From assembly GCF_013409205.1 (NCBI RefSeq), contig NZ_JACCAE010000001.1, positions 2,356,001 through 2,420,000 of the forward strand: a stretch of 64,000 nt of DNA. The letters are read 5' to 3'. The notes beneath the pieces are model-generated. The model worked only from the letters and a program-made list of their open reading frames with translations. It made no database searches and was not told the DNA's origin. Position 1 is the stretch's first letter, and each line of letters opens with the position of its first letter. The DNA is from Janibacter cremeus (lineage in GTDB: Bacteria; Actinomycetota; Actinomycetes; Actinomycetales; Dermatophilaceae). Position numbers and translations under genes: made by a program. Positions 701 through 60,345 of the stretch are shown one piece after another.

Positions 701-966
701 GGATTCTCCTTGCCAATCGTCGACACAAACACTCTATGCAGCATGGGCAGGTACTCCGATGAGCGATCCTCTACCGGTCAGCCGCGGGCTGCGGCGCTGA
801 AGCCGGTGGTGGTTCCTCGCGCGGGGCCACCCCCTTCGCCCTTGCTGGTGGTGACGCACGAGTAGGCAGAACAGTGCGCGAGATCTCGCCGTAGGCGTGG
901 TGACGGTGCGCTGGAGCCTCTGCGAGACTGGACGGCGGTCAACCGCCGAGATGAAGGACAACGGTC

Positions 967-1413
967 GTGCAGCGCTACATGCTCCACAGCAAGATCCACC
1001 GGGCCACGGTCACCCAGGCAGATCTGCACTACGTCGGGTCGCTGACGATCGACCTCGACCTCATGGACGCCGCGGACATGCTCCCCGGCCAGCAGGTCGA
1101 CATCGTCGACGTCGACAACGGCAACCGGTTGACCACGTACGCCATCGAGGGCGAGCGCGGCTCCGGGATCATCTGCATCAACGGTGCCGCAGCGCGTCTG
1201 GTGCAGCCCGGCGACACGATCATCATCATCGCCTACGCGTCCATGGACGACCACGAGGCACGGACCTTCGAGCCGCAGGTCGTCTTCGTCGACGAGGACA
1301 ACCGGATCGTGCAGCAGTACCACGACGCCGGTGACGTGCCCGAGGGATACGGCCTGATGACCTCGGCGGTCACCCACCGCGAGCACCCGGGTGGCGGAAC
1401 GGCCGGTGCCTGA
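967..1413 (+). CDS. panD: Aspartate 1-decarboxylase PanD
   Basis: Pyruvoyl-dependent enzyme that decarboxylates L-aspartate to beta-alanine for pantothenate and CoA synthesis. The GTG start gives [20 protein letters not shown], close to the family N-terminus, with AAGGA upstream. The self-cleavage site is visible as H21-Y-V-G24-S25: Ser25 becomes the pyruvoyl group after cleavage behind Gly24. The tail is slightly long (148 aa against about 126-140 usual). Its last 23 bases overlap the start of nadB, so the two aspartate-consuming enzymes are probably translationally coupled. CoaX and panC, often neighbours of panD in other actinobacteria, are not in the window. Confidence 0.97.
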
Positions 1414-3115
1414 CCCGGCGGGGGCGGCTGCGGTCGTCCTGCCGCGCTTCCTCTCCTCCCCACCGCCCGGGTGGACGGCGCAGGCCGACGTCCTCGTCGT
1501 CGGCTCCGGCATCGCCGGCCTGACCTGCGCCCTGCGACTGCGCGAGCACGTCGACCGGGTTCTGCTGGTGACCAAGACCGAGCTGTCCGCCGGGTCGACC
1601 ACATGGGCCCAGGGTGGGATCGCCGCGGCACTCGCCCCCGAGGACTCACCGCAGGAGCACCTCGACGACACCCTCGTCGCCGGCGGAGGCCTGTGCGACG
1701 AGTCGGCCGTCGAGGTGCTTGTCACCGAGGGGCCGGCGCGGGTGCGCGAACTCATCTCCCTCGGGGCGCGCTTCGACACCGACGAGTCCGGCGCGATCAC
1801 CCTGACCCGAGAGGGCGGCCACCACCGCGACCGCATCGCCCACGCCGGTGGCGACGCCACCGGCGCCGAGATCTCCCGCGCACTCATCGCACAGCTGGAG
1901 GTCGTGCGTGCCGATCCCGGCATCGAGATCATCGAGAACGCCCTCGTCGTCGACCTGCTCACCTCCGCCGAGGGCAGCGTGTGCGGCGCGACTGTGCACG
2001 TCATCGGCGAGGGAGAGATCGACGGCGTCGGGGCGGCCCGCGCCCGGGCCGTCGTGCTCGCGACCGGAGGTCTGGGCCAGATCTATTCCTCGACGACCAA
2101 CCCTCCCGTGACCACTGGCGACGGCATGGCGGCCGCGTTGCGGGCAGGGGCTGCGCTCGCGGACCTGGAGTTCGTGCAGTTCCATCCGACCGTGATGCAC
2201 CTCGGGCCCGGGGCCAGCGGGCAGCAGCCACTGGTCTCCGAGGCGGTGCGTGGCGAGGGCGCGGTGCTCGTCGACTCCACCGGCGAGGCCTTCATGGCCG
2301 ACGTGCACCCGATGGCCGATCTCGCGCCCCGTGACGTCGTCGCCCGCGCGATCCTGGCCCGGATGGAGGTGACCGGCACCGACCACGTGTTCCTCGACGC
2401 CCGGGCGCTGGGGGGCGAGTTCCTTCAGCGGCGCTTCCCGACCATCGTCGCCCGGTGCCGCGAGCTGGGGATCGATCCGGTCACCGAGCCCATCCCCGTT
2501 GCCCCGGCGCAGCACTACGCCTCCGGTGGCGTGCGCACCGACCTGCGCGGGCGCACCAACCTGCCGGGCCTCTACGCCTGCGGCGAGGTCTCCTGCACCG
2601 GCGTGCACGGCGCCAACCGGCTCGCGAGCAACTCGCTCCTGGAGGGACTGGTCTTCGCCCACCGCATCGCCGAGGACCTCGTGGCGCGGCTGGCCGGGGG
2701 CGAGCTGCCCCTCGTCGACGCATCCGACGAGGGGAGCACCAGCCTGCTCGACGCCGGTCACCGTGATGCCCTGCAGGCGATGATGACGAAGGGGGTGGGC
2801 CCCCTTCGCTCCGGTGAGTCCACGTCCTCGGTGCTGGCCTCCTTGCACGAGCTGGCCGGGACCTTGTCCGACGCCGAGCCGGGACCGCGCAGCTGGGAGG
2901 GCACCAACCTGCTCCACCTCGGGCAGGCGTTGGCCACCGCCGCGCACCTGCGCGAGGAGACGCGCGGGGGCCACGTGCGTCGTGACCACCCGGACAGCGA
3001 CGACGAGGACTGGTCCGCCCACCTCGTCCACGTGCGCGACCCGGACGACGGCGAACTGGTCGTCATCAAGCTCGACGTCGATCCGACCCGGCCGATGCCG
3101 CGCAGTAGTTCCTGA
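1391..3115 (+). CDS. nadB: L-aspartate oxidase NadB
   Basis: FAD enzyme oxidising L-aspartate to iminoaspartate, the first step of de novo NAD synthesis. 574 aa. The dinucleotide-binding motif VVGSGIAGL lies at about residues 36-44; the [11 protein letters not shown] segment that contacts FAD follows, and [10 protein letters not shown] plus [22 protein letters not shown] are the typical active-site and FAD-binding blocks of NadB rather than SdhA. The GTG start overlaps panD; no separate RBS is clear, in line with coupling. NadA, the partner quinolinate synthase, is not in the window. A perfect 9-base inverted repeat (2787-2808) built from the window-wide CGAAGGGGG motif lies inside the coding region. 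Confidence 0.96.
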
Positions 3116-3146
3116 GCGGTCTTCGGCGCTGCCGTACCCTCAGCAC

Positions 3147-4052
3147 GTGATCGCGTCAGAGAAGGATCCGTCCACGAGCTACTTCCCACTCGGGGCAGCG
3201 CGGCGTCTCGTAGGCACCGCCCTGACCGAGGACCTCGGCCCCGACGGTCTCGACGTCACGAGCTCCGCGACGATCCCCGCCGACCAGACGGCGACCGGTC
3301 ACGTCGTCGCCCGCGAGCCCGGCGTCCTCGCCGGCGCGCCGATCATCGCCCCCGTCCTCGACGGCGTGGCCTCGATGACGGGAGGGACGCCCCCTTCGCT
3401 CGAGGTGCGGATCGCCGACGGAACCCGACTGGAAGCCGGTGACGTCATCGCGGTCCTTCACGGTCCCGTCCGGCAGGTGCTCATGGCCGAGCGCATGATG
3501 CTCAACATCCTCTCTCGCCTGTCCGGCGTCGCCTCGCACACCCGCCGCTGGGCCGATGCCCTCGCCGGGACCCGATGCACGGTGCTCGACACCCGCAAGA
3601 CGACGCCGGGCCTGCGCGAGCTGGAGAAGTACGCCGTGCGAGCCGGAGGAGGCACCAACAAGCGAATGGGTCTCTTCGACGTGGCGATGGTCAAGGACAA
3701 CCACGTCGTTGCCGCCGGGGGAGTGGCTGCCGCCTACGCCGCGATCCGGACGCGCCATCCCGATGTCGCGATCGAGGTGGAGGTCGAGTCGACCCAGCAG
3801 GCACTGGAGGCGCTCGAGGCCGGGGCGCGATTCCTCATGTGCGACAACATGTCCATCGACCTGCTGCGCGCGACGGTCGCCGCCGCCCGGTCCTGGGTCG
3901 CCGAGCGAGGTGAGGGCGTCGAGATCGAGGCGACCGGTGGACTGACCCTCGACGTCGCCGCCGCGTACGCAGCGACCGGGATCGACTACATGAGCGTCGG
4001 CGGGCTCACCCACTCCTCGCCGATCATCGACCTCGCGCTCGATCTGGACTGA
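3147..4052 (+). CDS. nadC: Nicotinate-nucleotide pyrophosphorylase NadC
   Basis: Converts quinolinate and PRPP to nicotinate mononucleotide, CO2 and pyrophosphate. 301 aa from the GTG at 3147. Visible family blocks: LTEDLGPDGLDVTS near the N-terminus, AERMMLNILSRLSGVAS, LDTRKTTPGLRELEKYAVRAGG (the PRPP/quinolinate-binding Arg and Lys), FDVAMVKDNH, and the phosphate-binding GGLTLDVAAAYAATGIDYMSVGGLTHS. The longer open frame upstream is only the shadow of nadB. A TACCCT box ends 6 bases before this GTG and there is no Shine-Dalgarno motif, so a leaderless transcript may start here in addition to readthrough from nadB. Confidence 0.95.
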   Translation: MIASEKDPSTSYFPLGAARRLVGTALTEDLGPDGLDVTSSATIPADQTATGHVVAREPGVLAGAPIIAPVLDGVASMTGGTPPSLEVRIADGTRLEAGDVIAVLHGPVRQVLMAERMMLNILSRLSGVASHTRRWADALAGTRCTVLDTRKTTPGLRELEKYAVRAGGGTNKRMGLFDVAMVKDNHVVAAGGVAAAYAAIRTRHPDVAIEVEVESTQQALEALEAGARFLMCDNMSIDLLRATVAAARSWVAERGEGVEIEATGGLTLDVAAAYAATGIDYMSVGGLTHSSPIIDLALDLD

Positions 4053-4054
4053 TC

Positions 4055-6048: not shown

Positions 6049-7557
6049 GTGAGTGACACCCCCAACGAGCCCCCTGTCGACGACGAGCTCCCGGAGCAGA
6101 TGCGCATCCGGCGCGAGAAGCGCGACCGCATCCTCGCCGACGGCAGGCAGGCCTACCCGGTCGGTGCCTCCCGCACCCACACACTCGCACAGGTCAACGA
6201 CACCTGGGGCCACCTCGAGACCGGTGAGGAGACCCAGGACGTCGTCACCGTCGCGGGGCGCGTGATGTTCGTGCGCAACACCGGCAAGCTCGCCTTCGCT
6301 GCGCTGCAGGAGGGGGTCGGCACACGTCTGCAGATCATGCTCTCCCTCGCCGAGGTCGGCCAGGAGGCTCTCGACGCGTGGAAGCACGAAGTCGACCTGG
6401 GCGACCACGTCGCGGTCACCGGCCGGGTGATCCGCTCCCGTCGCGGGGAGCTGTCGGTCATGGCGACCTCCTGGACGATGGCCTCGAAGGCGCTGCGCCC
6501 CCTTCCCGTCCTGCACAAGGAGCTGTCGGAGGAGGCACGCGTGCGCCAGCGCTATGCCGACCTCGTGGTGCGCCAGGAGGCCCGTGACATGGTCCGCCTG
6601 CGCGCTCAGATCGTGCGCGCCATTCGGGAGACGTTGCACGCGCGGGAGTTCATCGAGATCGAGACGCCGGTGTTGCAGCTCATTCACGGTGGTGCCGCGG
6701 CACGTCCTTTCCAGACGCACATGAATGCCTTCGACCAGGGGATGTCGCTGCGCATTGCCCTCGAGCTGCCGCTGAAGAAGGCCGTCGTCGGTGGCGTGGA
6801 CCGCGTCTACGAGATGGGCCGCCTTTTCCGTAACGAGGGTGTGGACTCCACGCACTCCCCGGAATTCACCTCGCTCGAGGTCTACGAGGCCTGGGGCGAC
6901 CAGTTCACGATGGCCGAGCTGATCAAGTCGCTCATTCTTGCCGCCGCAGATGTCGCCGGGACCCGACAGGTGACCACGGCTGCCGGTGATGTCGACCTCG
7001 ACGGCCAGTGGCAGTGGCTCTCCTTCTACCCGGCACTGAGCGCGGCCGTGGGCGAGGACGTCGACGTCACCACCCCGATCGAGCGTCTGCGTGCGATCGC
7101 CCGGGCGAAGGGGGTCGACCTCGACCCCTCGTGGGACGCCGGCAAGGCCGCCATGGAGTTGGTCGCCGAGCTCGTCGAGCCGAGCTGCGTCCAGCCGACC
7201 TTCATCTGCGACTACCCGGCCATCGCCCAGCCACTGGCCCGTCCGCACCGGGAGAAGGGGAAGGAGGGCCTCATCGAGGCCTGGGACCTCTTCATCGGTG
7301 GCGTCGAGCGCGGCACGGCGTTCTCCGAGCTGATCGACCCGGTGATCCAGCGCGAGGTCCTTGTGGACCAGTCCCGTCGAGCGGCTGCAGGTGACGACGA
7401 GGCAATGCAGCTGGACGAGGACTTCCTGCGGGCGCTGGAGTTCGGTGCCCCGCCGATGGGTGGTCTGGGTCTGGGCATTGATCGCCTGATCATGCTCTTC
7501 ACCGGTGCCGGTATCCGCGAGACCATTCTCTTCCCGCACACCAAGCCCGAAGCCTGA
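6049..7557 (+). CDS. lysS: Lysyl-tRNA synthetase, class II
   Basis: Charges tRNA-Lys. 502 aa. N-terminal OB fold with VAGRVMFVRNTGKLAF and SRRGELSV; motif 1 region REFIEIETPVL; motif 2 GRLFRNEGVDSTHSPEFTSLE; motif 3 GLGLGIDRLIMLFTG; ends with FPHTKPEA. The C-terminal sequence differs from E. coli LysS in the way mycobacterial LysS does (for instance AWDLFIGGVERGTAFSEL). A TATCGT box ends 8 bases before the GTG and no Shine-Dalgarno is apparent, which points to a leaderless mRNA. lsr2 follows after one small gene, the order known from M. tuberculosis. Confidence 0.96.
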   Translation: MSDTPNEPPVDDELPEQMRIRREKRDRILADGRQAYPVGASRTHTLAQVNDTWGHLETGEETQDVVTVAGRVMFVRNTGKLAFAALQEGVGTRLQIMLSLAEVGQEALDAWKHEVDLGDHVAVTGRVIRSRRGELSVMATSWTMASKALRPLPVLHKELSEEARVRQRYADLVVRQEARDMVRLRAQIVRAIRETLHAREFIEIETPVLQLIHGGAAARPFQTHMNAFDQGMSLRIALELPLKKAVVGGVDRVYEMGRLFRNEGVDSTHSPEFTSLEVYEAWGDQFTMAELIKSLILAAADVAGTRQVTTAAGDVDLDGQWQWLSFYPALSAAVGEDVDVTTPIERLRAIARAKGVDLDPSWDAGKAAMELVAELVEPSCVQPTFICDYPAIAQPLARPHREKGKEGLIEAWDLFIGGVERGTAFSELIDPVIQREVLVDQSRRAAAGDDEAMQLDEDFLRALEFGAPPMGGLGLGIDRLIMLFTGAGIRETILFPHTKPEA

Positions 7558-8178: not shown

Positions 8179-8796
8179 GTGCCTGCTGAGGAGCTGCGCG
8201 CCGTCGTCGCGGAGCTCGACCGGCATCTTGCCTTCCTCACGGTCCGGGTCGTCGACGACGGCGACCCGGACCGTGGCATTCCCCTGGCGCGTGCATCACA
8301 GATCGCACCGCCGTGGATCGAGGCCTACCGCGAGGTGACGATCGCCCAGTCCGGCACCGCGCCGGCCGGGATGCCCGCGGCGTTCGTCCTGCAGTACCTG
8401 CTCGACCCGCTGGCGACGGTCATCGCGACCGCGGCGGTGCACACCCCCTTCGCCCTCGACGCCGACCCGGCGCTGTGGTCGCTCGATCTCGATCCGACCT
8501 ACCTCTACCCGGTGGCGGTGCAGCTTCGACACGGTGACCACCGACGGATCGCCGACGATGTGGACCGGCACGACGCCGCCTTCTCGGGCTACAGCGCCAC
8601 GGGTACCGCACTCGCGACGGACCTGCCGACGCCCACGAAGATGAGCAGCCGGCAGCGCTTGGGCATGGTCGAGGACATGTGGGAGATCGCCCTGTCCCGG
8701 ATCCTGGGTGCTGCGCCACCGGCCCGCAGGTCGTGCTGCCTGATGTACGCACTGCCCGGACTGACCGCGTGCGCCGGGTGCCCGCGGCAGGCGTGA
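8179..8796 (+). CDS. FhuF-like (2Fe-2S)-binding protein
   Basis: 205 aa from the GTG at 8179. The C-terminus RRSCCLMYALPGLTACAGC has the exact C-C-x10-C-x2-C spacing of the [2Fe-2S] site in FhuF-type ferric-siderophore reductases, including the aromatic and LPG between the cysteine pairs. The rest is a poorly conserved helical domain with no other motif I recognise. Role inferred from the family: reduction of Fe(III) in siderophores in the cytoplasm. It sits five bases after lsr2 and ends 22 bases from a convergent gene. No siderophore transporter is in the window. Confidence 0.75.
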   Translation: MPAEELRAVVAELDRHLAFLTVRVVDDGDPDRGIPLARASQIAPPWIEAYREVTIAQSGTAPAGMPAAFVLQYLLDPLATVIATAAVHTPFALDADPALWSLDLDPTYLYPVAVQLRHGDHRRIADDVDRHDAAFSGYSATGTALATDLPTPTKMSSRQRLGMVEDMWEIALSRILGAAPPARRSCCLMYALPGLTACAGCPRQA

Positions 8797-10137: not shown

Positions 10138-11062
10138 CGCTCGTCTCCTGCAGGTCGGTCGGCGTGAGTTCGGAGCGCACCCGGACGAAGGAGGGTTGGC
10201 GCAGCCGGCCACTGGCCCGGCCGAGGCTGGCCACGTCGATGACGATCTCCGGCTCGACCCAGGTCGTCCCTCGGGCATCTTCGCGGGGCACCTCGGCGGC
10301 GAAGGGGGAGTCCCCCCGCTCGAGGGGCCCCAGCCGTTGGAGCATGGCGGCTCCCGCACGGCCGGCGAGGCCGGACCCCACCCGGCCGACGAAGTCCCAG
10401 CCATCGGGTCCGGGCACACCGACGAGGACGGCACCGAGCAACTGTCCGCCCACCTCGGGACGCCAGCCACCGATTGCCACGGACTCGGTCGCGCGGTGCG
10501 GCAGCTTGAGCCAGTCGGGGGAGCGGCGCCCGGCGGCGTAGGAAGAGGAGCGGCGCTTGGCGACGATGCCCTCCAGGCCCTGGTCCGCGGTCGCGGCGAG
10601 CAGGCCCTCGCCGTCGTCGTAGGTCGGAGGGACCTGCCAGCGTGGAGCGTCGATCTCGAGCTGCTCGAGGAGCTGCCGTCGCGCCGACCACGGCTGGGAG
10701 GTGAGGTCCTGCCCGAGCAGGCGCAGCAGGTCGAACGCCATGAGCGTCACCGGTCGGCTCACGGCGAGGGTCGCCGCGCGGCGGGGGCTGCTGACGTGCA
10801 TCCGCTCGGTCAACCCGGCGAAGGAGGGCCGCCCCTCGACCATGGCGACGAGCTCACCGTCGAGCACCATGTCGTCGTACAGGTCCGCCAGTGGCGCGAG
10901 CTCGGGGTAGGCGACCGTGACGTCGCGGCCGGTGCGACTCGTCACGGTCAGGGCGCCCCCCTTCGCCTCGACGAGGACGCGCATGCCGTCCCACTTGACC
11001 TCGTGGACCCACTCCGGTCCCGCCGGGACGGTCTCGGTGAGCGTGGCGAGCATCGGGCGCAT
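10130..11062 (-). CDS. ATP-dependent DNA ligase (LigD ligase-domain type)
   Basis: 310 aa. The adenylation lysine is Lys23 in HEVKWDGMR; other ligase blocks are SRTGRDVT, LDGELVAM, MAFDLLRL, LEGIVAKRRSSSY and the OB-fold part ending with VRVRSELTPTDLQE. Length and blocks fit the LIG domain of LigD or a LigC-type ligase. It is first in a two-gene minus-strand operon with the polymerase domain gene. With Ku at 17265 it gives a near-complete non-homologous end-joining set. Confidence 0.92.
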   Translation of the reverse strand: MRPMLATLTETVPAGPEWVHEVKWDGMRVLVEAKGGALTVTSRTGRDVTVAYPELAPLADLYDDMVLDGELVAMVEGRPSFAGLTERMHVSSPRRAATLAVSRPVTLMAFDLLRLLGQDLTSQPWSARRQLLEQLEIDAPRWQVPPTYDDGEGLLAATADQGLEGIVAKRRSSSYAAGRRSPDWLKLPHRATESVAIGGWRPEVGGQLLGAVLVGVPGPDGWDFVGRVGSGLAGRAGAAMLQRLGPLERGDSPFAAEVPREDARGTTWVEPEIVIDVASLGRASGRLRQPSFVRVRSELTPTDLQETSDG

Positions 11063-11833: not shown

Positions 11834-13177
11834 GTGAGCTATCCCGATGGCTTCCTGTGGGGAGTCTCCACGGCGGCGTACCAGATCGAGGGTGCGGTCG
11901 ACGAGGACGGCCGGGGCCGTTCGGTCTGGGACACCTTCTGCGAGCAGCCCGGCGTGATCGCCGACGGCAGCAGCGGCGCGGTGGCCTGCGACCACTACCA
12001 CCGCTACGCCGAGGACGTCGCCCTCATGCGCGAGCTGGGGGTGGGGGGATATCGCTTCTCGATCGCCTGGCCGCGCGTCCTGCCGACGGGAAGCGGCGCG
12101 GTCAACGCGGCGGGTCTCGACTTCTACGACCGGCTGGTGGACGAGCTGTGCGCGGCAGGCATCGCCCCAGTGCCCACGCTCTTCCACTGGGACACCCCCC
12201 AAGCCGTGGAGGACGAAGGGGGCTGGCTGGCGCGGGACACCGCCCACCGGTTCGCGGAGTACGCCGCTGTGGTCGCCGACCGACTGGGCGACCGTGTGCC
12301 GCACTGGATCACGATCAACGAGCCCCGAGAAGTGACCATGCTCGGCTACGGCCTCGGCGTGCACGCCCCCGGGCGCACAGGTCTCTTCGAGGCGCTGCCG
12401 GTGGCCCACCACCTGCTGCTCGGACACGGTCTGGCCGTGCAGTCCCTGCGGGCGACCGGCGCGAGGAGCATCGGGGTCGCGGCCAGCCACAATCCCACCT
12501 GGAGTGCCGGCGAGAGCACGGCCGACCGGGAGGCGGCCGAGCTGTTCGACCACCTCAACAACTGGCTCTTCGCCGATGCCCTCGTGCGTGGTGACTACGG
12601 CGAGGGGTGGAATGAACTGCTGCCCGTCCAGGACGGCGACATGTCGATCATCAGCCAGCCGCTGGACTGGTACGGGGTCAACTACTACAACCCCACCCGG
12701 GTCGGTGCTCCCGGCAGCGGGTCGAGCGAGGTCGACGGGGTGTCCACACCCGACGGGCTCCCGTTCTCCTTCACCCCGATCACGGACGTGCCCCAGACGG
12801 ACTTCGGCTGGCCGGTCGTGCCGGAGGGGCTCACCCAGATCCTGATGACGATGAGGCACAGGTACGGCGAGGCCATGCCTCCCGTGATGATCACCGAGAA
12901 CGGCTGCTCCTACGACGACCCGATCGCCGCCGACGGCCGGATCGCCGACGAGCGGCGCATCGACTACCTCGACTCCCACCTGACGGCGCTGCGTGAGGCG
13001 ATCTGCCAAGGGGTCGACGTGCGTGGCTACTTCACCTGGTCACTGCTGGACAACTTCGAGTGGGCGGAGGGCTTCCGCCAGCGATTCGGGCTCGTGCACG
13101 TCGACTACGACACCCTGGCCCGCACGCGACGCGACTCCTTCCACTGGTTCGCCGAGCACATCCGGGCGCACCAGTGA
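11834..13177 (+). CDS. Family GH1 beta-glycosidase
   Basis: 447 aa, full family length. FLWGVSTAAYQIEGA is the GH1 N-terminal signature; the acid/base glutamate is in WITINEP (usually TxNEP) and the nucleophile in MITENG; the C-terminal FTWSLLDNFEWAEG is also typical. There is no signal peptide, so it acts in the cytoplasm on imported glycosides or glycoside phosphates. Exact sugar unknown. GTG start at 11834; the upstream ATG at 11826 opens a three-codon frame (Met-Ser-Gln-stop) that overlaps the start. It overlaps the MFS gene by 4 bases. Confidence 0.95.
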   Translation: MSYPDGFLWGVSTAAYQIEGAVDEDGRGRSVWDTFCEQPGVIADGSSGAVACDHYHRYAEDVALMRELGVGGYRFSIAWPRVLPTGSGAVNAAGLDFYDRLVDELCAAGIAPVPTLFHWDTPQAVEDEGGWLARDTAHRFAEYAAVVADRLGDRVPHWITINEPREVTMLGYGLGVHAPGRTGLFEALPVAHHLLLGHGLAVQSLRATGARSIGVAASHNPTWSAGESTADREAAELFDHLNNWLFADALVRGDYGEGWNELLPVQDGDMSIISQPLDWYGVNYYNPTRVGAPGSGSSEVDGVSTPDGLPFSFTPITDVPQTDFGWPVVPEGLTQILMTMRHRYGEAMPPVMITENGCSYDDPIAADGRIADERRIDYLDSHLTALREAICQGVDVRGYFTWSLLDNFEWAEGFRQRFGLVHVDYDTLARTRRDSFHWFAEHIRAHQ

Positions 13178-17264: not shown

Positions 17265-18248
17265 ATGCGCGCCATCTGGAAGGGGGCCGTCTCCTTCGGC
17301 CTCGTCAACGTCCCCGTCCGCCTGTACTCCGCGACGGAGAACCACGACGTGCAGTTCCGCCAGGTCCACCGCACCGACGGCGGTCGGATCCGGTACAAGC
17401 GCTTCTGCAGCATCGACGGCGAGGAGGTCGCCTACGACGACATCGCCAAGGGCTACGAGACGCAGGACGGCGAGATGGTCGTGCTCACCGATGAGGACAT
17501 GGCCGGCCTGCCGACGCGTTCGAGCAAGGAGATCAGCGTCGAGAAGTTCGTCCCCGAGGACCAGATCGATCCCATGCTGCTGGACAAGAGCTACTACCTC
17601 GAGCCGGACAAGTCGGCGACCAAGCCCTATGTCCTGCTGCGTGAGGCTCTCGAGGCCCAGGGACGGATGGCGATCGTCACCGTCTCCATCCGTACCCGGA
17701 TGACCATGGCGGTGCTGCGCGTGCGTGAGGGCGTCATCGTCATGCAGACGATGCTGTGGCCCGACGAGATCCGCAGCGCGGACTTCGCCGCGGTGGACGA
17801 GGCGGGGGAGGCCAGCGAGAAGGAGATGGCGATGGCTCGTCTGCTCATCGACGAGCTCGCCGGAGACTACGACGCCGACGAGTTCGAGGACGACTACGCC
17901 ATCGCCGTGGAGGACCTCGTCAAGGCCAAGATCGAAGGGGGCGAGGTCAGCGCCCCCGAGGCGGAGGAGGACGAGGGCGGCGAGGTCGTCGACCTGCTCG
18001 CGGCGCTGGCGAAGTCGGTCGACAAGGCCAAGAAGTCCCGCGGGGAGAGCACGGACTCTTCCCCGGATGAGGCCCCGGCGCAGAAGGCCGCCGCCAAGAA
18101 GAGCCCAACGAAGAAGGCCACCGCCAAGAAGTCCCCGGCGAAGAAGTCGACCACCAAGAAGGCGACGACGAAGAAGGCAACGGCGAAGAAGGCAACGGCG
18201 AAGAAGGCAACGGCGAAGAAGTCGCCAACCAAGAAGAAGGCGAGCTGA
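17265..18248 (+). CDS. ku: Ku protein of bacterial NHEJ
   Basis: Binds double-strand break ends and recruits LigD. 327 aa from the ATG at 17265. MRAIWKGAVSFGLVNVPVRLY is the Ku core start (key residues W5, F11, G12, V14); the ring-forming core runs to about residue 260 with ISVEKFVPEDQIDP and AKIEGGEV near its end. After it comes a lysine-rich tail of about 55 residues made of KKATA/KKSP-type repeats, longer than in minimal Ku proteins and able in principle to bind DNA outside the ring. A CTGACG-17-CATGCT promoter ends 6 bases before the ATG. nei-like gene follows after 12 bases. Confidence 0.95.
   Translation: MRAIWKGAVSFGLVNVPVRLYSATENHDVQFRQVHRTDGGRIRYKRFCSIDGEEVAYDDIAKGYETQDGEMVVLTDEDMAGLPTRSSKEISVEKFVPEDQIDPMLLDKSYYLEPDKSATKPYVLLREALEAQGRMAIVTVSIRTRMTMAVLRVREGVIVMQTMLWPDEIRSADFAAVDEAGEASEKEMAMARLLIDELAGDYDADEFEDDYAIAVEDLVKAKIEGGEVSAPEAEEDEGGEVVDLLAALAKSVDKAKKSRGESTDSSPDEAPAQKAAAKKSPTKKATAKKSPAKKSTTKKATTKKATAKKATAKKATAKKSPTKKKAS
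18084..18240 (+). repeat. Low-complexity lysine repeat DNA in ku
   Basis: Imperfect tandem repeats encoding the Ku tail, including three exact 15-base units AAGGCAACGGCGAAG in a row. Units code for KKATA, KKSPT and KKSTT variants. Such DNA is prone to slippage, so tail length may vary between strains. Confidence 0.75.
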
Positions 18249-18260
18249 CCTCCCTTCGCC

Positions 18261-19085
18261 ATGCCTGAAGGCCACACTCTCCACCGGATCGCCCGGGACC
18301 TGCGCGCCGCCTTTGCCGGTCGGGTCGTGTCCGTGTCGTCCCCACAGGGGCGGTTTGCCGCCGGTGCCGCGCTGCTGACCGACCACGAGGTCGTGGAGGC
18401 ACGCGCCCACGGCAAGCACCTCTTCGTCGAGTTCGCCGGCGAGCGGGTCCTGCACGTCCATCTCGGTCTCATCGGCAGCTTCACCATCGACGCGACGGCA
18501 TACGTGGGGGAGCGGCCGGTCATCGGGCAGGTCCGCTGCCGCATCGCCGGCGACCGGCACGTCGCTGACCTGCGTGGCCCCATGACCTGCCGGGTCATCA
18601 CCCCGGACGAGGAAGCGGCCGTGCACCACAAGCTCGGCCCGGATCCCCTGCGGGACAGCGATGGCGAACCGGCGTGGGAGCGGATCCACCGGTCGAGGAA
18701 GTCGGTGGCCGCACTGCTCATGGAGCAGCAGGTGCTTGCCGGCGTCGGCAACGTCTACCGCTGCGAGGTCCTCTTCCGGCACCGGATCAACCCGATGACC
18801 CCCGGTGAGCGGCTCAAGCGCAGCTCGTGGGACCTCATCTGGGCAGACCTGCGGCGCCTGCTGCCCCTCGGCGTCGCGACGAGTCGGATCGTGACCGTCG
18901 CGGACGAGGTGGCGCAGATCGAGTCCGCCCTGGCGAAGGGGGAGGACGTGCACCTCGACGAGCGGACGAGCTACGTGTACAAGCGGACCGGCCAGGACTG
19001 CGACCGGTGCGGCTCGATCATCAAGGCGAAGGACGTCGCCGGCCGCAACCTCTACTGGTGCGGGAACTGCCAGCGGCGCAGCTGA
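18261..19085 (+). CDS. Nei/Fpg-family DNA glycosylase
   Basis: Base-excision repair bifunctional glycosylase removing oxidised bases. 274 aa. The catalytic Pro2-Glu3 (MPEGHTLHRIARDL) is intact, the helix-two-turn-helix reads KSVAALLMEQQVLAGVGNVYRCEVLF, and the C-terminal zinc finger has four cysteines in CDRCGSIIKAKDVAGRNLYWCGNC (C-x2-C-x16-C-x2-C). MPEGHT rather than MPELPE points to the endonuclease VIII (Nei) branch common in actinobacteria. Its place 12 bases behind ku suggests a shared repair operon. Confidence 0.93.
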   Translation: MPEGHTLHRIARDLRAAFAGRVVSVSSPQGRFAAGAALLTDHEVVEARAHGKHLFVEFAGERVLHVHLGLIGSFTIDATAYVGERPVIGQVRCRIAGDRHVADLRGPMTCRVITPDEEAAVHHKLGPDPLRDSDGEPAWERIHRSRKSVAALLMEQQVLAGVGNVYRCEVLFRHRINPMTPGERLKRSSWDLIWADLRRLLPLGVATSRIVTVADEVAQIESALAKGEDVHLDERTSYVYKRTGQDCDRCGSIIKAKDVAGRNLYWCGNCQRRS

Positions 19086-23967: not shown

Positions 23968-24048
23968 GGGCCCTCACGGTGGTCGAGGTGCAAGGCCGTT
24001 CGCGGCTGAGCCTCGAGGCCACATCACCGCACACCTCCAAGCGCGACG

Positions 24049-24080
24049 GGGGGCCGGTCACCATCGGGTGACCGGCCCCC
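24049..24080 (+). terminator. Stem-loop terminator after clpC
   Basis: Perfect 14-base inverted repeat GGGGGCCGGTCACC / GGTGACCGGCCCCC with the loop ATCG, followed by TTCG rather than a long T run. The right arm runs into a copy of the CCCCCTTCG motif (24076-24084). Confidence 0.8.
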
Positions 24081-24182
24081 TTCGTCATGCCCGGGATGGT
24101 CGCGAATGGCCGGGATATCTGTCCGGGGCCGCGTTGTGTCCCGGCCGTGCCCGACGGAGCAGGTCAGGGCGATGTGTCCCGG

Positions 24183-26344: not shown

Positions 26345-27213
26345 CGCCCGTCCGTGCCCTGCTCGGCCAGCCCGTCCTCGAGCAGCCCGGCGAGGCAGCG
26401 CTCGACCTTCGACTCGTCGTCGGGCCACGTGGCCGCGATCGCCGTGCGCGTCACCGGGTCCGCGCTCTCCCGCAACAGCTGGACGATCCGCCCGCGGACC
26501 TGCCGGTCCGTGCCGTGCCATGTCTGGCCTCGTCGCGGTGGTCCCTCCTGCTCGGGGCGTCCGGCGAGCTGCCAGGCGCACAAGTGCGCGACCGGGCACT
26601 CGCCGCACGCGGGGGAGCGGGCCGTGCACACCAGTGCGCCCAGTTCCATGACCGCGGCGTTCCACGCATTGGCCTCGCCCACCTCACCCGGCATCGAGCG
26701 CTCGGCGAGCCGGGTCTCGGCGACCGTGAGCGACGCCGCGGCGTGCTGCTGACCCGTGATCGTGCGGGCGAGGACCCGTCGGACGTTGGTGTCGACGACG
26801 GTGTGCGGGTCCCCGAAGGCGAAGGAGGCGACTGCCGCAGCCGTGTAGGCGCCCACTCCCGGCAGCGCGAGCAGGTCCGCGTGCTCGCTCGGGACCTCGC
26901 CGTCGTGCCGTTCGACCATCACCGTCGCCGACTCCCACAGGCGCAACGCCCGGCGCGGGTAGCCCAGTCGGTCCCACATCCGCACCGCCTCGCCCGGGGT
27001 GTCCGAGGCCAGGTCGAAGGGGGTCGGCCAGCGTTCCATCCAGCGCTGCCAGATGGGCAGCACCCGCGCGATGGGGGTCTGCTGGGACATCACCTCGGAC
27101 AGGTAGACACCCCACGCAGGGCACTCGGGCTCGCGCCACGGCAGGTCGCGACCGTGGTCCGCGTACCAGGACGCGACGGCGTGGTGGAGCAGCGGTCCGG
27201 CGGCTTCGGTCAT
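26326..27213 (-). CDS. mutY: A/G-specific adenine glycosylase MutY
   Basis: Removes adenine paired with 8-oxoguanine. 295 aa. The catalytic Glu lies in YLSEVMSQQT, the helix-hairpin-helix is LPGVGAYTAAAV followed by the catalytic Asp in VVDTNVRRV, and the [4Fe-4S] cluster is C-x6-C-x2-C-x5-C (CTARSPACGECPVAHLC). It lacks most of the C-terminal NUDIX-like domain of E. coli MutY, as usual in actinobacteria. It overlaps by 4 bases the end of the TGA-interrupted gene and is last in the radA-disA operon. Confidence 0.95.
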   Translation of the reverse strand: MTEAAGPLLHHAVASWYADHGRDLPWREPECPAWGVYLSEVMSQQTPIARVLPIWQRWMERWPTPFDLASDTPGEAVRMWDRLGYPRRALRLWESATVMVERHDGEVPSEHADLLALPGVGAYTAAAVASFAFGDPHTVVDTNVRRVLARTITGQQHAAASLTVAETRLAERSMPGEVGEANAWNAAVMELGALVCTARSPACGECPVAHLCAWQLAGRPEQEGPPRRGQTWHGTDRQVRGRIVQLLRESADPVTRTAIAATWPDDESKVERCLAGLLEDGLAEQGTDGRYSLPS

Positions 27214-32428: not shown

Positions 32429-33276
32429 CACCTCTCCCGGGCGGCCAGGGTCGCGGGGTGGACGAGCAGTGGCAGCAGGTCCCGGCCGGCGGGCGAAGGG
32501 GGTCCCGCTGCCCCCTTCGTCCCGGTCGCCGTGGCCACGAGGGCCAGGTGCGCCTCGCAGCGCTCGGCGAGTTGCTCGTACCCGTCCGCGCCCATGAGCT
32601 CGATGAGGCCGGCGCGCTCGCTGACGTAGACCGGGTCGGGTGCGGTGTGGGCGTCAGGGCTGCCGGAGCAGTACCAGTCGAGCTCGTGCCCGCCGGCGCC
32701 CCACCCGCGCCGGTCGTACTCGCCGATGCTGACCTCGAGGTAGCTGGTCCCGTCGGGCAGCTCGACGTCGCGGTAGGTGCGTCGGATCGGCAGCTGCCAG
32801 CACACGTCCGGCTTGGTCGTGTGCGGCTCCACGCCGGTGAGGATCGCGTGCTGGTGCAGCGCGCAGCCCGCCCCCGCGGGGAAGCCGGGCCGGTTGAAGA
32901 AGATGCAGGCGCCGTCGACGACCTTCGTCTTCAGCTCGCCGTCCTCCTTCTCCGTCCACGCCGAGCGGCGGGTCGTGCCCGGGTGCAGCTGCCACTCGTC
33001 CTCGCCGAGCTCGTCAGCGATCGCCTTGACCCGCTTGACGTCGTCGAAGTCGGTGAAGTGCGCCCCGAGCACGCAGCACCCGAAGTCCGGCTGGTCGGAG
33101 TCGATCCCGTGGCAGCCGTTGCCGAAGATGCACGTCCACGACGAGGTCAACCACGTCAGGTCGCAGCGGAAGCGCTGCCCCTCCTGCGCCGGGTCGTCGA
33201 ACTCGACCCACGTCCGTGCCGTCGCCAGGTCGGTCTCGCCGGGGTGCCGTTCGCTGTCCTGCTCCACGGGCGACAC
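32428..33276 (-). CDS. Conserved cysteine-rich protein of unknown function
   Basis: 282 aa from the GTG at 33276; the longer frame reaches into the ppx promoter and start. Eight or so cysteines cluster in [44 protein letters not shown] and DVCWQLP, which looks like the metal or Fe-S-binding region of YkgJ/DUF3109-like proteins. A link to those families is only a resemblance. It is divergent from ppx with 58 bases between starts and coupled to the FAD oxidase behind it, so it may help that enzyme. The stretch encoding its C-terminus contains a hairpin of two CGAAGGGGG motif copies (32494-32519). Confidence 0.65.
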
Positions 33277-43426: not shown

Positions 43427-43466
43427 CGAAGGGGGCCACACCGGGGATCCGGTGCGGCCCCCTTCG
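43427..43466. terminator. Terminator after bS22
   Basis: 18-base arms (43427-43444 and 43449-43466) around the loop GGAT with one mismatched pair; both outer ends are copies of the CGAAGGGGG motif. No T tract. Confidence 0.8.
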
Positions 43467-51044: not shown

Positions 51045-52045
51045 CTCCCGCGACGTCCGTCCCGACCGGACCGCAGGTGCGTCCGCGGCGACTTCGGGGC
51101 AGTGGCCCCCTTCGCCGTCTCGTCGCGGAGACCCGGCTGCACCCGGCTGATCTGGTCCTGCCCGTCTTCGTCCGTGAGGGTATCGACGCGCCGGTGGAGA
51201 TCTCCTCCATGCCGGGAGCGGTGCAGCACACCATCGACTCGCTGGTCGAGGAGGCTCGCGCCTGCGTCGCCGCCGGCATCGGTGGAGTCATGCTCTTCGG
51301 GGTGCCGCAGACCAAGGACGCGCGCGGCTCCGGCGCGGACGACCCCGAGGGGATCCTCAACGTGGCCACCCGGGCCGTCGTCGACGCGGTTGGTGACGAG
51401 CTGGTCGTCATGACCGACCTGTGCCTCGACGAGTTCACCGACCACGGCCACTGCGGGGTGCTCACGACCGACCCCGCCGGCCGGACGGTCGTCGACAACG
51501 ACGCCACCCTGGCGCGGTACGCCGACATGGCGCTCGCGCAGGCGGCCGCAGGGGCCCACGTACTCGGGCTCTCCGGGATGATGGACGGCCAGGTCGCCCG
51601 TGTGCGCGCGGCCCTGGACACCGCCGGCCACACCGACACGCTCGTGCTGGCCTACGCCGCGAAGTACACCTCGGCGCTGTACGGCCCCTTCCGCGAGGCC
51701 GTGCAGTCATCTCTCACCGGCGACCGGGCGACCTACCAGCAGGACCCGGCCAACGCCGTCGAGGCCCTGCGCGAGGTCGAGCTGGATCTCGCCGAGGGCG
51801 CTGACATCATCATGGTCAAGCCGGCCCAGCCGCACCTGGACATCATCGCCGCCACGGCACAGATCTCGACCGTGCCCGTCGCGGCCTACCAGATCTCCGG
51901 CGAGTACGCGCAGATCGTCGCCACCGCGGACCGCGGCTGGATCGACCGCGACGCAGCGGTGCTCGAGTCGCTCATCCACATCAGGCGGGCGGGAGCGCAG
52001 ATGATTCTCACGTACTTCGCACTCGAGGTGGCGGGACGACTGTGA
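51041..52045 (+). CDS. hemB: Delta-aminolevulinic acid dehydratase HemB
   Basis: Condenses two ALA to porphobilinogen. 334 aa. Schiff-base lysines in LAYAAKYTSALYGPF and DIIMVKPA; the metal-site region is DLCLDEFTDHGHCGVL, where the middle cysteine of the zinc-type DVCLCEYTDHGHC is Asp, giving a mixed site. LGLSGMMDGQVARVR replaces the common PSDMMDGRI block. The first 20 residues (TPATSVPTGPQVRPRRLRG) include the PRRLR start usual in HemB. GTGA overlap with the MarR gene. Confidence 0.95.
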   Translation: MTPATSVPTGPQVRPRRLRGSGPLRRLVAETRLHPADLVLPVFVREGIDAPVEISSMPGAVQHTIDSLVEEARACVAAGIGGVMLFGVPQTKDARGSGADDPEGILNVATRAVVDAVGDELVVMTDLCLDEFTDHGHCGVLTTDPAGRTVVDNDATLARYADMALAQAAAGAHVLGLSGMMDGQVARVRAALDTAGHTDTLVLAYAAKYTSALYGPFREAVQSSLTGDRATYQQDPANAVEALREVELDLAEGADIIMVKPAQPHLDIIAATAQISTVPVAAYQISGEYAQIVATADRGWIDRDAAVLESLIHIRRAGAQMILTYFALEVAGRL

Positions 52046-52608: not shown

Positions 52609-53937
52609 ATGACGCAATCGACGACCCGATCTGAGGCCCTGTTCGACCGCGCCCGCGCCGTGACGCCCGGGGGAGTGAACTCCCCGGTGCGCGCCTTCGG
52701 CGGGGTCGGTGGGGTTCCCCGGTTCATCGAGCGGGCCGAAGGCCCTTGGCTGACCGACGTCGACGGCAACCGTTACGTCGACCTGATCTGCTCGTGGGGG
52801 CCGATGATCCTCGGCCACGCCCACCCGGACGTGCTCGCCGCGGTGACCGACGCTGCGCGTCGTGGTTTCTCCTTCGGCACGCCGAGCGAGGGCGAGGTGG
52901 CCCTTGCCGCCGAGGTCGTCGACCGAGTCGAGCCGCTCGAGCAGGTTCGTCTGGTCTCCTCCGGGACCGAGGCGACGATGTCCGCCCTTCGTCTGGCGCG
53001 GGGGGTGACCGGCCGCTCGGTCATCGTGAAGTTCGCCGGCTGTTACCACGGCCACGTGGACGCCCTTCTCGCACAGGCCGGCTCGGGCGTTGCGACCTTC
53101 GCGCTCCCTGACTCCGCCGGAGTTCCCGCCTCGGCCGCGGGGGAGACGGTCGTGTTGCCGTACAACGACCTCGCCGCCGTCGAGGAGCTCTTCGCCGCGC
53201 GTGGCCAGGAGATCGCCGCGGTCATCACCGAGGCCTCGCCCGGCAACATGGGCATCGTCCCGCCCGGGCCCGGATTCACCGAGGGGCTGCGCCGGGTGAC
53301 CGCCGCCCACGGCGCGCTGCTCATCAGCGACGAGGTCATGACCGGATTCCGGTCCAGCCGTTCGGGGTGGTACGGCCACGAGACCGGTCCCGACGGGGCG
53401 CACCCCGGCGGCTACGAAGGGGGAGCGCCCGACCTGTTCACCTTCGGCAAGGTCATGGGCGGTGGCTTCCCGGCTGCGGCCTTCGGTGGGCGCGCCGATC
53501 TCATGGCCCGGCTCGCTCCGGAGGGGCCGGTCTACCAGGCCGGGACCCTGTCCGGTAACCCCGTCGCGACGGCTGCCGGGCTCGCGACGCTGCGCGCCTG
53601 CACCCCGCAGCTCTACCCGCGGCTGGAGGCGACGGCCACACGTATCGCCGACGCCGCCTCGGCCGCTCTGTCCGCCGAGGGGGTCGCGCACCGCGTGCAG
53701 TGGGCCGGCTCGATGTTCTCGGTCTTCTTCCGCGAGGGGCAGGTGCGTTCCTTCGACGACGCCCAGCAGCAGGACACGGCCGCCTACGGCCGCTTCTTCC
53801 AGGCGATGCTCGAGGGTGGGGTGCACCTGCCGCCGAGTGCCTTCGAGGCGTGGTTCGTCTCCGGGGCGCACGATGAAGAGGCGCTCGAGACGATTCTGGA
53901 CGCGTTGCCCGCAGCCGCGAAGGCGGCCTCCGCCTGA
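52609..53937 (+). CDS. hemL: Glutamate-1-semialdehyde 2,1-aminomutase HemL
   Basis: PLP enzyme making 5-aminolevulinate. 442 aa. [21 protein letters not shown] is the family start; the PLP-binding lysine is in [39 protein letters not shown] and [20 protein letters not shown] are further blocks. ATG start; last gene of the hem cluster, with an inverted repeat after it (53975-54026). Confidence 0.96.
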
Positions 53938-54067: not shown

Positions 54068-54748
54068 TCAGGGGCGGGCGATGTAGAGCGCGTACTCGAA
54101 GGGACGCCCCTGGCGCTCCACGGGCAGGACGACCTCCTCGGTGGGGGCCAGACCCGCCAGCGTGGCGAGCAGGGCCGGCTCGCGCTGGGCGGCCCAGATC
54201 GTCAGGGCGCCCCCCTTCGTCACCTGTGACAGGAGCCGGGACAGCGTGGCGGCGCAGTAGAGGCGCTCGTTGTCCTCGTGCACCAGGAAGCTCGGCCCGT
54301 TGTCCACGTCCAGCAGGACGAGGTCCCACGGCCCGGCCGGCTCGTCGTCGCCGGTGACGGCGGAGACCGCGTCCTGCACGTGCAGGGTCACCCGTGGGTG
54401 GCGGGCGAGCACACCGAGCGTCGGGGTCAGGCCCAGACGCGCCCACTGGACGAGGTCCTCCTCGAGCTCGACGACGTGCAGGTCGCGCACCCGCCGGTCC
54501 TTGAGTGTCTGCCAGGCGGTGAAGCCCAGACCCAGGCCCCCGATGAGGACCCGCGTGGGTGCTGCCACCCTCTCCAGGGAGCGTTGCGCCAGTGCCGTCT
54601 CGGTCGAGGTGTCCGCCGAGTCCATCGCGAAGACCCCGGCCACGACCAGCTCGTGGACCACGCTGCCGTCATCGTCGCTGCGCTCGCGCAGGGAGACTTC
54701 ACCTCGGGGTGTCGTGGCGACGGCGATCGTCTCGGGCGTGTTGTTCAT
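54068..54748 (-). CDS. Spermidine-synthase-like methyltransferase-fold protein
   Basis: 226 aa from the ATG at 54748 (CAGG and GGAAG upstream; the alternative ATG at 54784 adds 12 residues and lacks an RBS). Rossmann-like core: RVLIGGLGLGFTAWQTL (SAM-type glycine motif), LHVVELEEDLVQWA with the acidic residue, DLVLLDVDNGPSFLVHEDNERLY. This is the SpeE-like fold without the N-terminal beta domain of polyamine synthases; the substrate is unknown and such proteins are often only labelled spermidine synthase. Confidence 0.78.
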   Translation of the reverse strand: MNNTPETIAVATTPRGEVSLRERSDDDGSVVHELVVAGVFAMDSADTSTETALAQRSLERVAAPTRVLIGGLGLGFTAWQTLKDRRVRDLHVVELEEDLVQWARLGLTPTLGVLARHPRVTLHVQDAVSAVTGDDEPAGPWDLVLLDVDNGPSFLVHEDNERLYCAATLSRLLSQVTKGGALTIWAAQREPALLATLAGLAPTEEVVLPVERQGRPFEYALYIARP

Positions 54749-54882
54749 GACCTGCTTCCGGTCGGAGCGGGATTTCTGCGACATGTCTGTTGTCTATTAC
54801 GTCACGGTAACCGGGTAAAAGTCACATTCCGAACGGCGGGGGCACCAAGGTGTTCCCGGTCACGAGGGGGTACCTTGAGCCC

Positions 54883-55599
54883 GTGGCTACTACGACTCTC
54901 CCTGCGAAGAAGAAGGGTGTGGCGTCGTCCTCCATCGGGCTGAAATTCCTCATGGCGGGCTCCGGCGTCATCTTCCTTCTGTACGTGCTCCTGCACATGT
55001 ACGGCAACCTCATGGCACTGGGTGGTCAGGAGGCGTTCGACACCTACGCCCACCACCTGCGCACCTTCGGTGAGCCGATGCTCCCCTACGGCGGGATGCT
55101 GTGGATCGTGCGGGTCGTGCTGATCGTGTCGATCATCGCGCACGTCTACGCCGGGATGAAGTTGTGGTCCAGGGCCAGTTCGGCGCGCCCGCAGAAGTAC
55201 GCGGTGAAGAAGAACCTCGGCTCCACCCTCGCCTCCCGCACGATGCGCTGGGGTGGGCTGGCCATCCTGGTCTTCGTCATCTGGCACCTGATCCACTTCA
55301 CGCTCGTCAAGCCGGCCATCAACAGCTCGGTGGACGCTGCGAAGATCGAGGCATCCCCCTTCGTCATGGTCCAGGCGAGCTTCGAGCTGTGGTGGATGGT
55401 CCTGATCTACGCACTGGCCATGATCGCCCTGGGCATGCACCTGTACCACGGCGTCTGGAGCGCCGCCCAGACCATGGGTCTGACGACGACCGCGACCACG
55501 CGCAAGCGGGCCAAGACGCTCGGCGCGATCGTGGGGATCGTCATCGTCGTCGGCTTCCTCATCCCGCCGTTCGCGATCCTCTTCAACCTCATCGCCTGA
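54883..55599 (+). CDS. sdhC: Succinate dehydrogenase cytochrome b subunit SdhC (B-type)
   Basis: 238 aa from the GTG at 54883, with TACCTT 6 bases upstream and no Shine-Dalgarno, so probably leaderless; upstream in-frame codons to 54850 belong to the promoter. Five membrane helices ([95 protein letters not shown]) with histidines placed for two haems, as in the single-subunit B-type anchors. Accepts electrons from SdhB and reduces menaquinone. Confidence 0.94.
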
Positions 55600-58347: not shown

Positions 58348-58357
58348 GCGTCACAGA

Positions 58358-59266: not shown

Positions 59267-59341
59267 GTCCCCACTCTAAGGACCCGGTCCCGGACTGCGT
59301 CGCACGACCGTGGGCGCGAAGGGGGTCGGCCTGCGGCCCGG

Positions 59342-59527: not shown

Positions 59528-59534
59528 GATCAAC

Positions 59535-59581
59535 CTTTCTACATCTGTTGAAGACGCAAATGAATCTACGCGTGTAGAAAG
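59535..59581. promoter_or_regulatory. Candidate TetR operators between small membrane gene and tetR
   Basis: Inverted repeat CTTTCTACA (59535-59543) / TGTAGAAAG (59573-59581), and within the right half the perfect palindrome TCTACGCGTGTAGA (59565-59578). AT-rich for this genome. Lies 8 bases from the small membrane gene ATG and 72 bases from the tetR ATG. Confidence 0.65.
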
Positions 59582-59653
59582 CCGGCGTCAAGTCGTGTCG
59601 GACCGCCCACGCCCGGGCCGGCGCAGCGGGTGTGGGCGGGTACCGTGACCGCA

Positions 59654-60244
59654 ATGAGCGAGAAGGAGACCTCGGTCCTGTCGCCGAGGATGCAGCTGAT
59701 CCTCGAGGCCGCGACGCGGGTCGTGGCCGCGAGAGGCATGCGCGGGCTGACGCATCGCGCCGTGGACGCCGAGGCGGGACTGCCCCAGGGGAGCACCTCC
59801 GGCTACCTGCGCACCCGCATGGCTCTCGTGACCGCCCTGACGGAGTTCATCGCGGCCGGACTCATCGACAACGTCGAGGTCCTGGCCGGCCGGCAGCAGG
59901 CGGGCGAGTCCGACGAGGCGCTCATCGAGAGCGCCCTGGACCTCTTCGCCGGCTGGTTGCGTGAGCCCGACGCGTTGATCGCCAAGGCCGAGCTCGCCCA
60001 CGAGGTGGCCCGTGAGCCCGAGATCGCTGCGGCGATGGAGCCGGCTCGCGAGCGCATCGAGGGGATCGTCGGCCAGATCCTCACCCGCGCCGAGGTCGCT
60101 GATGTCCAGACCTCCGCGCAGGCGATCATCGCCGCGATGGAGGGTGTGCTGGGCGCGGCTCTCCAGCGTCCGGAGGCCGAGCGCGAGGAGTTCGTGCGCG
60201 GTATCGGTCACCGCATCATCACCGCCTTCATCCCGCAGGACTGA
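59654..60244 (+). CDS. TetR-family regulator
   Basis: 196 aa. HTH: MQLILEAATRVVAARGMRGLTHRAVDAEAGLPQGSTSGYLRTRMALV (key RGLTHRAVDAEAGLPQGSTSGY), the variant TetR type in which TSxYY is TSGYL. TACCGT ends 7 bases before the ATG with no RBS, so the mRNA is probably leaderless. Divergent from the small membrane gene. Confidence 0.88.
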   Translation: MSEKETSVLSPRMQLILEAATRVVAARGMRGLTHRAVDAEAGLPQGSTSGYLRTRMALVTALTEFIAAGLIDNVEVLAGRQQAGESDEALIESALDLFAGWLREPDALIAKAELAHEVAREPEIAAAMEPARERIEGIVGQILTRAEVADVQTSAQAIIAAMEGVLGAALQRPEAEREEFVRGIGHRIITAFIPQD

Positions 60245-60345
60245 TCGGCTCCCACCGGGGTGGTCGACCCCCTTCGCCAGCCACCGTCGGCCCCAGGGGC
60301 GGCTGGGGAGAGGCCGCGAGTGCCGGGAACCTAGGATGAGCAACC

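Follow-up and report, generated by a model that had tools for sequence, protein, structure and literature searches.

Copies of a nine-base word in the window

The window analysed in this study is a 64-kb stretch (bases 2,356,001-2,420,000) of the single-contig Janibacter cremeus genome (3,307,489 bases), and its subject is a nine-base word, CGAAGGGGG, which reads CCCCCTTCG when it lies on the minus strand and which is interpreted below as part of a putative DNA uptake sequence. A sequence-only reading of the window had listed 24 copies and expected about two by chance. All 24 were found exactly at the positions given (13 CCCCCTTCG and 11 CGAAGGGGG), and the expectation on both strands was 1.5 copies at Markov order 3 and 2.1 at order 4. 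No 9-mer of the window was more over-represented than CGAAGGGGG (z = 18); among words not overlapping with it, the highest z was ca. 9.

Genes were called with our own codon-usage script, and their boundaries are approximate. Plus-strand copies were located within called genes at 7106..7114 (gene 6049-7557, plus strand), 10300..10308 (10130-11062, minus), 12214..12222 (11834-13177, plus), 17933..17941 (17265-18248, plus), 18934..18942 (18261-19085, plus), 27015..27023 (26326-27213, minus) and 53415..53423 (52609-53937, plus). Minus-strand copies were located within called genes at 3390..3398 (3147-4052, plus), 8444..8452 (8179-8796, plus), 10957..10965 (10130-11062, minus), 31855..31863 (31010-32428, minus), 51106..51114 (51077-52045, plus), 54211..54219 (54068-54784, minus) and 55355..55363 (54919-55599, plus). 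The copy at 830..838 (an exact match, minus strand) lay outside called genes, and those at 59317..59325 (plus) and 60268..60276 (minus) were intergenic.

The other copies belonged to hairpins. A plus-strand copy at 2787..2795, inside the called gene 1406-3115, formed the left arm of a head-to-head pair with the minus-strand copy at 2800..2808 (-18.1 kcal/mol, z -2.8; 3 of 200 shuffles folded as well). Between genes, the minus-strand copy at 24076..24084 was the right arm of a hairpin at 24044-24088 (-39.3 kcal/mol), and two further hairpins carried the word in both arms: 32494..32502 (plus) with 32511..32519 (minus; -26.5 kcal/mol), and 43427..43435 (plus) with 43458..43466 (minus; -37.8 kcal/mol). 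The z values of the hairpins starting at 24044, 32490 and 43424 were -7.3, -4.9 and -5.4, respectively; they refer to hairpin folding alone, U-tails forming no part of it.

The excess of the word in the genome

In the whole genome, the word occurred 609 + 656 = 1265 times on the two strands, which is ca. one copy per 2.6 kb, and the reversed word used as a control occurred 11 + 14 = 25 times. Further properties were evaluated on 1.264 Mb (38% of the genome), made up of the window and 60 sampled stretches; the results on this genome refer to this sample from here on unless the window or the whole genome is named. Against a Markov background of order 3, the comparison that the sequence-only reading had proposed, the excess persisted (463 copies vs 31 expected). 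The excess was thus ca. 15-fold over order 3 and ca. 50-fold over the reversed word, and when words of 8 to 12 bases with at least 30 copies were ranked, the motif or its extension came first. The observation of 24 copies was therefore real, and the sequence-only reading had understated it.

The extended motif was GRCGAAGGGGG (G 0.70 at -2; G 0.59 and A 0.27 at -1), and the flanks were near background beyond ca. 11 nt. Most one-mismatch variants were near expectation. Those that were enriched carried A (2.0-fold) or G (2.2-fold) as the first base, A (4.0-fold) as the eighth, or A (3.5-fold) or T (2.9-fold) as the ninth. A weak downstream preference was also seen, for C at +16 (0.51, background 0.35) and T at +21 (0.31, background 0.15). 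It is reminiscent of the weak flanking preferences of the uptake signal sequence (USS) of Haemophilus.

Distribution in genes, between genes and along the chromosome

Among the 463 copies, 360 lay inside called genes (0.318/kb) and 103 outside (0.781/kb), so that the word was 2.5 times denser between genes. Between neighbouring called genes, 99 copies were found vs 5.3 expected at order 3. Loss of the excess after matching codon usage had been named beforehand as a refuting outcome; when synonymous codons were shuffled within genes (30 shuffles), the mean was 60 coding copies (standard deviation 6.9, maximum 74) as compared to the 360 observed. Even this mean is inflated, since the shuffle retains the codons supplied by the motif itself, and a codon-usage artefact is ruled out. 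All six orientation and phase classes were present, with 7 to 118 copies each, the least-used frames being Arg-Arg-Gly (7) and Pro-Pro-Ser (16). The sequence-only reading had described several reading frames and placed selection or mutation at the level of DNA rather than peptide. The frames were borne out, and so was the level, the word being selected or propagated as DNA.

Pairs of copies less than 60 bp apart were mainly head-to-head (17 in +-, three in -+, none in ++ or --), and copy density was 1.11/kb in convergent, 0.84/kb in tandem and 0.60/kb in divergent intergenic regions. Intergenic hairpins with stems of 9 or longer numbered 87; the motif was present in 11 of them, and in six of these it occupied both arms. 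The earlier suggestion that the word forms terminator arms therefore holds for some copies, including those in the window hairpins at 24044, 32490 and 43424. A purely terminator-linked element is not supported because 360 of the 463 copies were inside called genes.

Along the chromosome, copies were spread as evenly as a Poisson process: over 63 bins, each 20 kb long, the mean count was 7.3 and the variance 7.5. The origin of replication, oriC, was placed near 1.719 Mb by the order gyrA-gyrB-recF-dnaN-dnaA-rpmH at locus L046, genes that we take to be these from their order and the N-termini of their translations. When the replichores were divided at 1.70 Mb and the terminus was set at the contig ends, 248 copies were on the leading strand and 215 on the lagging strand, which is no strong replichore skew, and none of the contig quarters was strongly skewed (56:74, 55:61, 59:66 and 54:38). 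DNA below 65% guanine-cytosine (GC) content was poor in the motif (0.08/kb; two copies in 25 kb), as compared to 0.38-0.46/kb above 68% GC. These low-GC stretches are possibly foreign DNA, and the scarcity is partly a composition effect.

When the window was aligned with twelve relatives, 43 of 80 site-instances were intact vs ca. 24 expected from ordinary 9-mer conservation, a sum in which the instances share ancestry and are not independent. The three closest relatives, with 30 of 42 site-instances intact, account for most of this signal. The sites thus turn over, more slowly than the background.

Lineages carrying the word

The family set comprised 186 genomes of 53 genera. The word was carried by all 16 genomes of the genus of the window (g1; 797-1860 copies) and all three genomes of a second genus (g5; 1317-1939 copies). 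The remaining 167 genomes had at most 80 copies each, and none of 273 sampled genomes from other families of the order had more than 101. ComEC from the genome of the window was 75-80% identical to matches in six Janibacter organisms and 57% identical to one in Marihabitans asiaticum. In a midpoint-rooted ComEC protein tree (36 sequences, one gene), this genome fell among Janibacter (100/100), and the g5 genomes G066 and G190 were placed with Marihabitans (100/99). Based on these groupings, g1 is called Janibacter and g5 Marihabitans-like; NCBI taxonomy places both named genera in Intrasporangiaceae. The nine ComEC sequences from carriers formed one clade (97/94) among lineages with other words or none. 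In the eight named Janibacter and Marihabitans loci, the word occurred at 2.2-6.5 per 10 kb, save for one of them, a 9-kb fragment, which had none.

Different words in sister genera

We sampled 40 kb (or 60 kb) from each of 22 other genera, and many of them had a different over-represented word. With a threshold set at 100 copies and five times the count of the reversed word, the most widespread, GGTATGCCG, passed in 111 of 186 genomes (32 of 53 genera) and reached up to 2198 copies. Its strands were balanced (40617:40547; chi-square 92 on 111 genomes). It occurred 3-20 times in the Janibacter and Marihabitans-like genomes, and it was not enriched in the 273 genomes sampled from the order outside this family, none of which had more than 61 copies. 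A further word, GGATGCCG followed by G or T, stood out in seven genomes belonging to three genera (1360-3198 copies); none of the other 179 genomes exceeded 629. With a baseline of ca. 250, the reversed word is a less stringent control in this case. GGTATGCCG and GGATGCCG have ATGCCG in common. At least one of the three words was carried by 134 of the 186 genomes and none of the three by the remaining 52, ten of which were sampled for further words.

In two genomes of genus g105, G327 and G328, GGTATGCCG (492 and 479 copies) and GGATGCCGK (1446 and 1360) occurred together, possibly a word switch in progress. Near-loss of GGTATGCCG was seen within genera: G366 had five copies vs 1602 and 305 in its congeners G367 and G368; G394 had 20 and was the sole one of 31 g11 genomes below the threshold (G397, 1213 copies); and G302 had six vs 466 in G034. 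In the genomes G325 and G452, GGATGCCG behaves like the Janibacter word, with 1.96/kb between genes vs 0.95/kb in genes and, within 60 bp, six +- pairs vs one ++ pair.

The Janibacter word marked one clade on the ComEC tree, and the other words needed several changes. For GGTATGCCG, seven changes were required on this single-gene tree, a number little below the 8.9 obtained with shuffled labels.

Several other words were noted in the same survey. GTATGACGG (G320; L155-L156), GTATGNCG (G441; L175-L176) and GTATGCGG (G316; L181-L182; 9 copies vs 0.7) are related to GGTATGCCG and may be more dialects of its family. The weak word GTACGNCG (G298, G308 and G366) was set aside as probably a codon effect (Tyr followed by GNC codons). 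An excess of GTATGCCG in the 40-kb sample of G213 was left out of the pooled analysis, being repeat-like (12 copies with shared long flanks); G213, with a whole-genome GGTATGCCG count of 112, was retained among the 111.

DNA-uptake machinery

In the genome of the window, the com locus encodes ComEC, with Competence and metallo-beta-lactamase domains, next to a ComEA-like protein that has SLBB and HHH_3 domains, and two Flp/Tad loci are present at ca. 2.255 and ca. 2.710 Mb. Among family genomes, ComEC was found in 56 of 57 tested; the Janibacter word has 19 carriers, and the 10 of them in this set were all positive. ComEA-type HHH_3 was found in 59 of 59 (five carriers included), T2SSE/CpaF in 38 of 38 (seven carriers), TadE in 49 of 49 (six carriers) and DprA in 28 of 28, the one set that covered all 19 carriers. 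Since word-bearing and word-free genomes are mixed in these sets, the competence and Tad genes are best regarded as a non-discriminating background. In the genomes tested, absence of competence genes was likewise not found to explain the loss of a word, ComEC, T2SSE, ComEA, DprA and TadE occurring in either case. The near-loss genomes G366, G394 and G302 all had ComEA and TadE, G366 and G394 had DprA, and the ComEC sequence of G366 was included in the tree. These three genomes offer a natural test for a receptor gene.

At the first Tad locus (ca. 2.255 Mb), small pseudopilin-like genes were less conserved between genera than the Flp pilin. Two of them lie beside the 44-residue Flp pilin, at L056:4023-4355 and L056:4372-4749, the latter with a predicted isoelectric point of 11.2.

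A putative uptake-sequence system

Based on the excess and distribution of the words, their pattern over lineages and the machinery genes in the genomes tested, we hypothesise, with a probability of ca. 0.7, that this actinobacterial family has an uptake-sequence system with dialects, in which GRCGAAGGGGG is the putative DNA uptake sequence (DUS) of Janibacter and Marihabitans. Under this hypothesis, competent cells would preferentially bind and import DNA carrying the word through a pathway of Flp/Tad pilus, ComEA, ComEC and DprA like that of Micrococcus luteus. Transformation would spread tagged alleles, and the word would therefore accumulate on either strand at any place where coding and regulation allow its presence. 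Head-to-head pairs would have been co-opted as hairpins between genes. Sister genera would use GGTATGCCG and GGATGCCG as dialects; in some genera no such word was found. The reader would be a pilin-like protein at the cell surface. As the Janibacter word is without the core common to the words of its neighbours, a replaced or strongly altered receptor would be needed.

To our knowledge, uptake sequences with dialects have so far been described only for two Gram-negative families, Neisseriaceae and Pasteurellaceae. The DUS of Neisseriaceae (GCCGTCTGAA) is read by the minor pilin ComP, and lack of a replication-strand bias is a feature of DUS and USS. M. luteus belongs to another family than Janibacter. 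Several features of DUS and USS were also found here: extreme excess, dispersal without a replication-strand bias, intergenic inverted pairs, phylogenetically coherent dialects and the machinery. Taken together, the excess, strand equality, single copies in genes, head-to-head hairpin pairs, no homology beyond the word, lineage-specific replacing words, mixed and lost states, and an uptake pathway make up a DUS/USS signature.

According to the accessible parts of the sources, Neisseriaceae have eight DUS dialects, all retaining CTG, with 1543-3770 copies (PMC3630211), and, as reported by TerminatorNet, DUS occur in up to 37% and USS in up to 22% of terminators in some Neisseriaceae and Pasteurellaceae, respectively (PMC13020248). 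The present words resemble DUS in being short, asymmetric, present in thousands of copies, lineage-coherent and changing between genera, in that two words can occur in one genome (PMC3630211), and in their presence in terminators (PMC13020248), which are putative here. They differ in belonging to another phylum, whose cells have no outer membrane, in their sequence, in that no ComP-like receptor was identified, in that one word is without the core common to the other two, and in a function that is predicted from sequence. The USS of Pasteurellaceae (AAGTGCGGT / ACAAGCGGT) likewise has a 9-nt core and occurs in terminators (PMC13020248, PMC12616744), but it is unrelated in sequence and organism, and an uptake bias is putative here. 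In the actinobacterium M. luteus, transformation proceeds through Flp pili (PMC4322843, PMC6370729), and its comEA, comEC and tad genes (PMC6370729) have counterparts in Janibacter; the term 'uptake sequence' is absent from the M. luteus paper PMC4322843. Among the matches listed from open-licence PubMed Central literature, we noticed no report of uptake sequences in actinobacteria, and titles and abstracts among the matches listed for the words themselves looked unrelated.

Several observations weigh against the uptake-sequence hypothesis. The strongest is that competence and Tad genes were equally present in word-free genera, so that their presence does not track the word. Conversely, the genome with no ComEC match, G442, had 504 copies of GGTATGCCG, though its assembly is fragmented (760 contigs). 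The chief oddity is the missing common core, GRCGAAGGGGG containing neither ATGCCG nor another evident core; a common core is a feature of known DUS cases, which we do not treat as strictly defining. In a 260-kb sample of six genomes, GGTATGCCG showed no intergenic enrichment (0.284 vs 0.271/kb) and no +- pair within 60 bp. Spacing of the Janibacter word more even than random was not found, the 20-kb bins being plainly Poisson. Competence of the cells, promotion of uptake by the word and its reading by a surface pilin-like protein are what we infer from these patterns. No receptor was identified, and the Tad pseudopilin-like genes are a mere lead towards one. In searches of open-licence PubMed Central, one paper mentioned Janibacter and competence, each a single time (PMC10860758), and no paper combined Janibacter with DNA uptake.

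With less confidence, we lean towards a broader claim: that this is a third, independent system for the uptake of self-DNA, the first in Gram-positives, with at least three dialects, a complete word switch in the ancestor of Janibacter and Marihabitans, losses inside genera and a reader among the Flp/Tad components instead of a minor pilin of type IVa. If the uptake-sequence hypothesis is true, the family provides an independent replicate for asking why uptake sequences evolve (receptor bias plus molecular drive, or selection for self-recombination). It also offers natural experiments in the form of a complete word switch, two-word genomes and near-loss of a word within a genus. Sequence recognition of DNA would then occur without an outer membrane, probably at the Flp/Tad pilus, and the words would be of practical use in the transformation of actinobacteria from the environment.

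Alternative explanations

Uptake sequences, which were not among the candidates of the sequence-only reading, fit the data best, and nucleoid-protein, modification, Chi, repeat-element and FtsK readings are less likely. Selection on DNA and the hairpin arms of some copies survive from that earlier interpretation; its FtsK-type and purely terminator-linked candidates do not.

The alternative that survives best, which we still consider unlikely, is that the word is bound by a nucleoid-associated or chromosome-organising protein specific to the lineage, with a recognition site that has shifted along with the protein from genus to genus. The even spread, DNA-level selection and genus-coherent words are consistent with such a protein, as is the fact that genomes with a word cannot be told from those without by whether they have competence genes. 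An asymmetric word that shows no spatial pattern along the sampled chromosome and forms head-to-head hairpin pairs argues against it, and a housekeeping protein would not readily account for sister genera having different words or for a genus in which one member has nearly lost its word.

Recognition by a system that marks self DNA for modification or defence is very improbable. A need to tell self from non-self would likewise lead to enrichment of the word in its host, and words do differ between genera. Ordinary restriction-modification, by comparison, acts on its sites wherever they happen to be, which does not explain a large excess; methylation or nuclease recognition alone leaves the ca. 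50-fold excess, the inverted pairs and the genus-specific replacement words unexplained, and hairpin pairing is not accounted for. We rate equally low a Chi-type recombination hotspot for an end-resection nuclease: the present word is G-rich, asymmetric, frequent and located mostly inside genes, as would suit Chi, but a clear leading-strand polarity is missing (248:215), head-to-head pairs and an intergenic preference are present, and the excess of ca. 15-fold (order 3) or 50-fold (reversed word) is larger than is known for Chi.

Still less credible are remnants of a small mobile palindromic element (repetitive extragenic palindrome or miniature inverted-repeat transposable element) or a terminator element spread by copying. 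Some copies do lie in intergenic inverted pairs, but most are single, inside genes and in all six frames (360 of 463), and the absence of homology beyond the core, with flanks near background past ca. 11 nt, largely rules out a transposable repeat.

FtsK/SpoIIIE orienting sequences (FtsK-orienting polar sequences, KOPS, and SpoIIIE recognition sequences, SRS) are short G-rich asymmetric genomic words, and KOPS are defined by a strong strand skew towards dif. The present word resembles them in being G-rich, asymmetric, ca. 8-9 nt long and genome-wide, with a composition like that of KOPS, but this candidate can be given next to no weight, as KOPS are ruled out by the strand counts on either side of the oriC located by gene order, neither the leading to lagging ratio nor the contig quarters show such a skew, and within the family the word is carried by two genera only and is not over-represented in the 167 other genomes.

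A minor observation concerns CTGCGCGAG/CTCGCGCAG, which was likewise over-represented in the window (19 copies vs 3.0 at order 3); this excess probably arises from codon usage.

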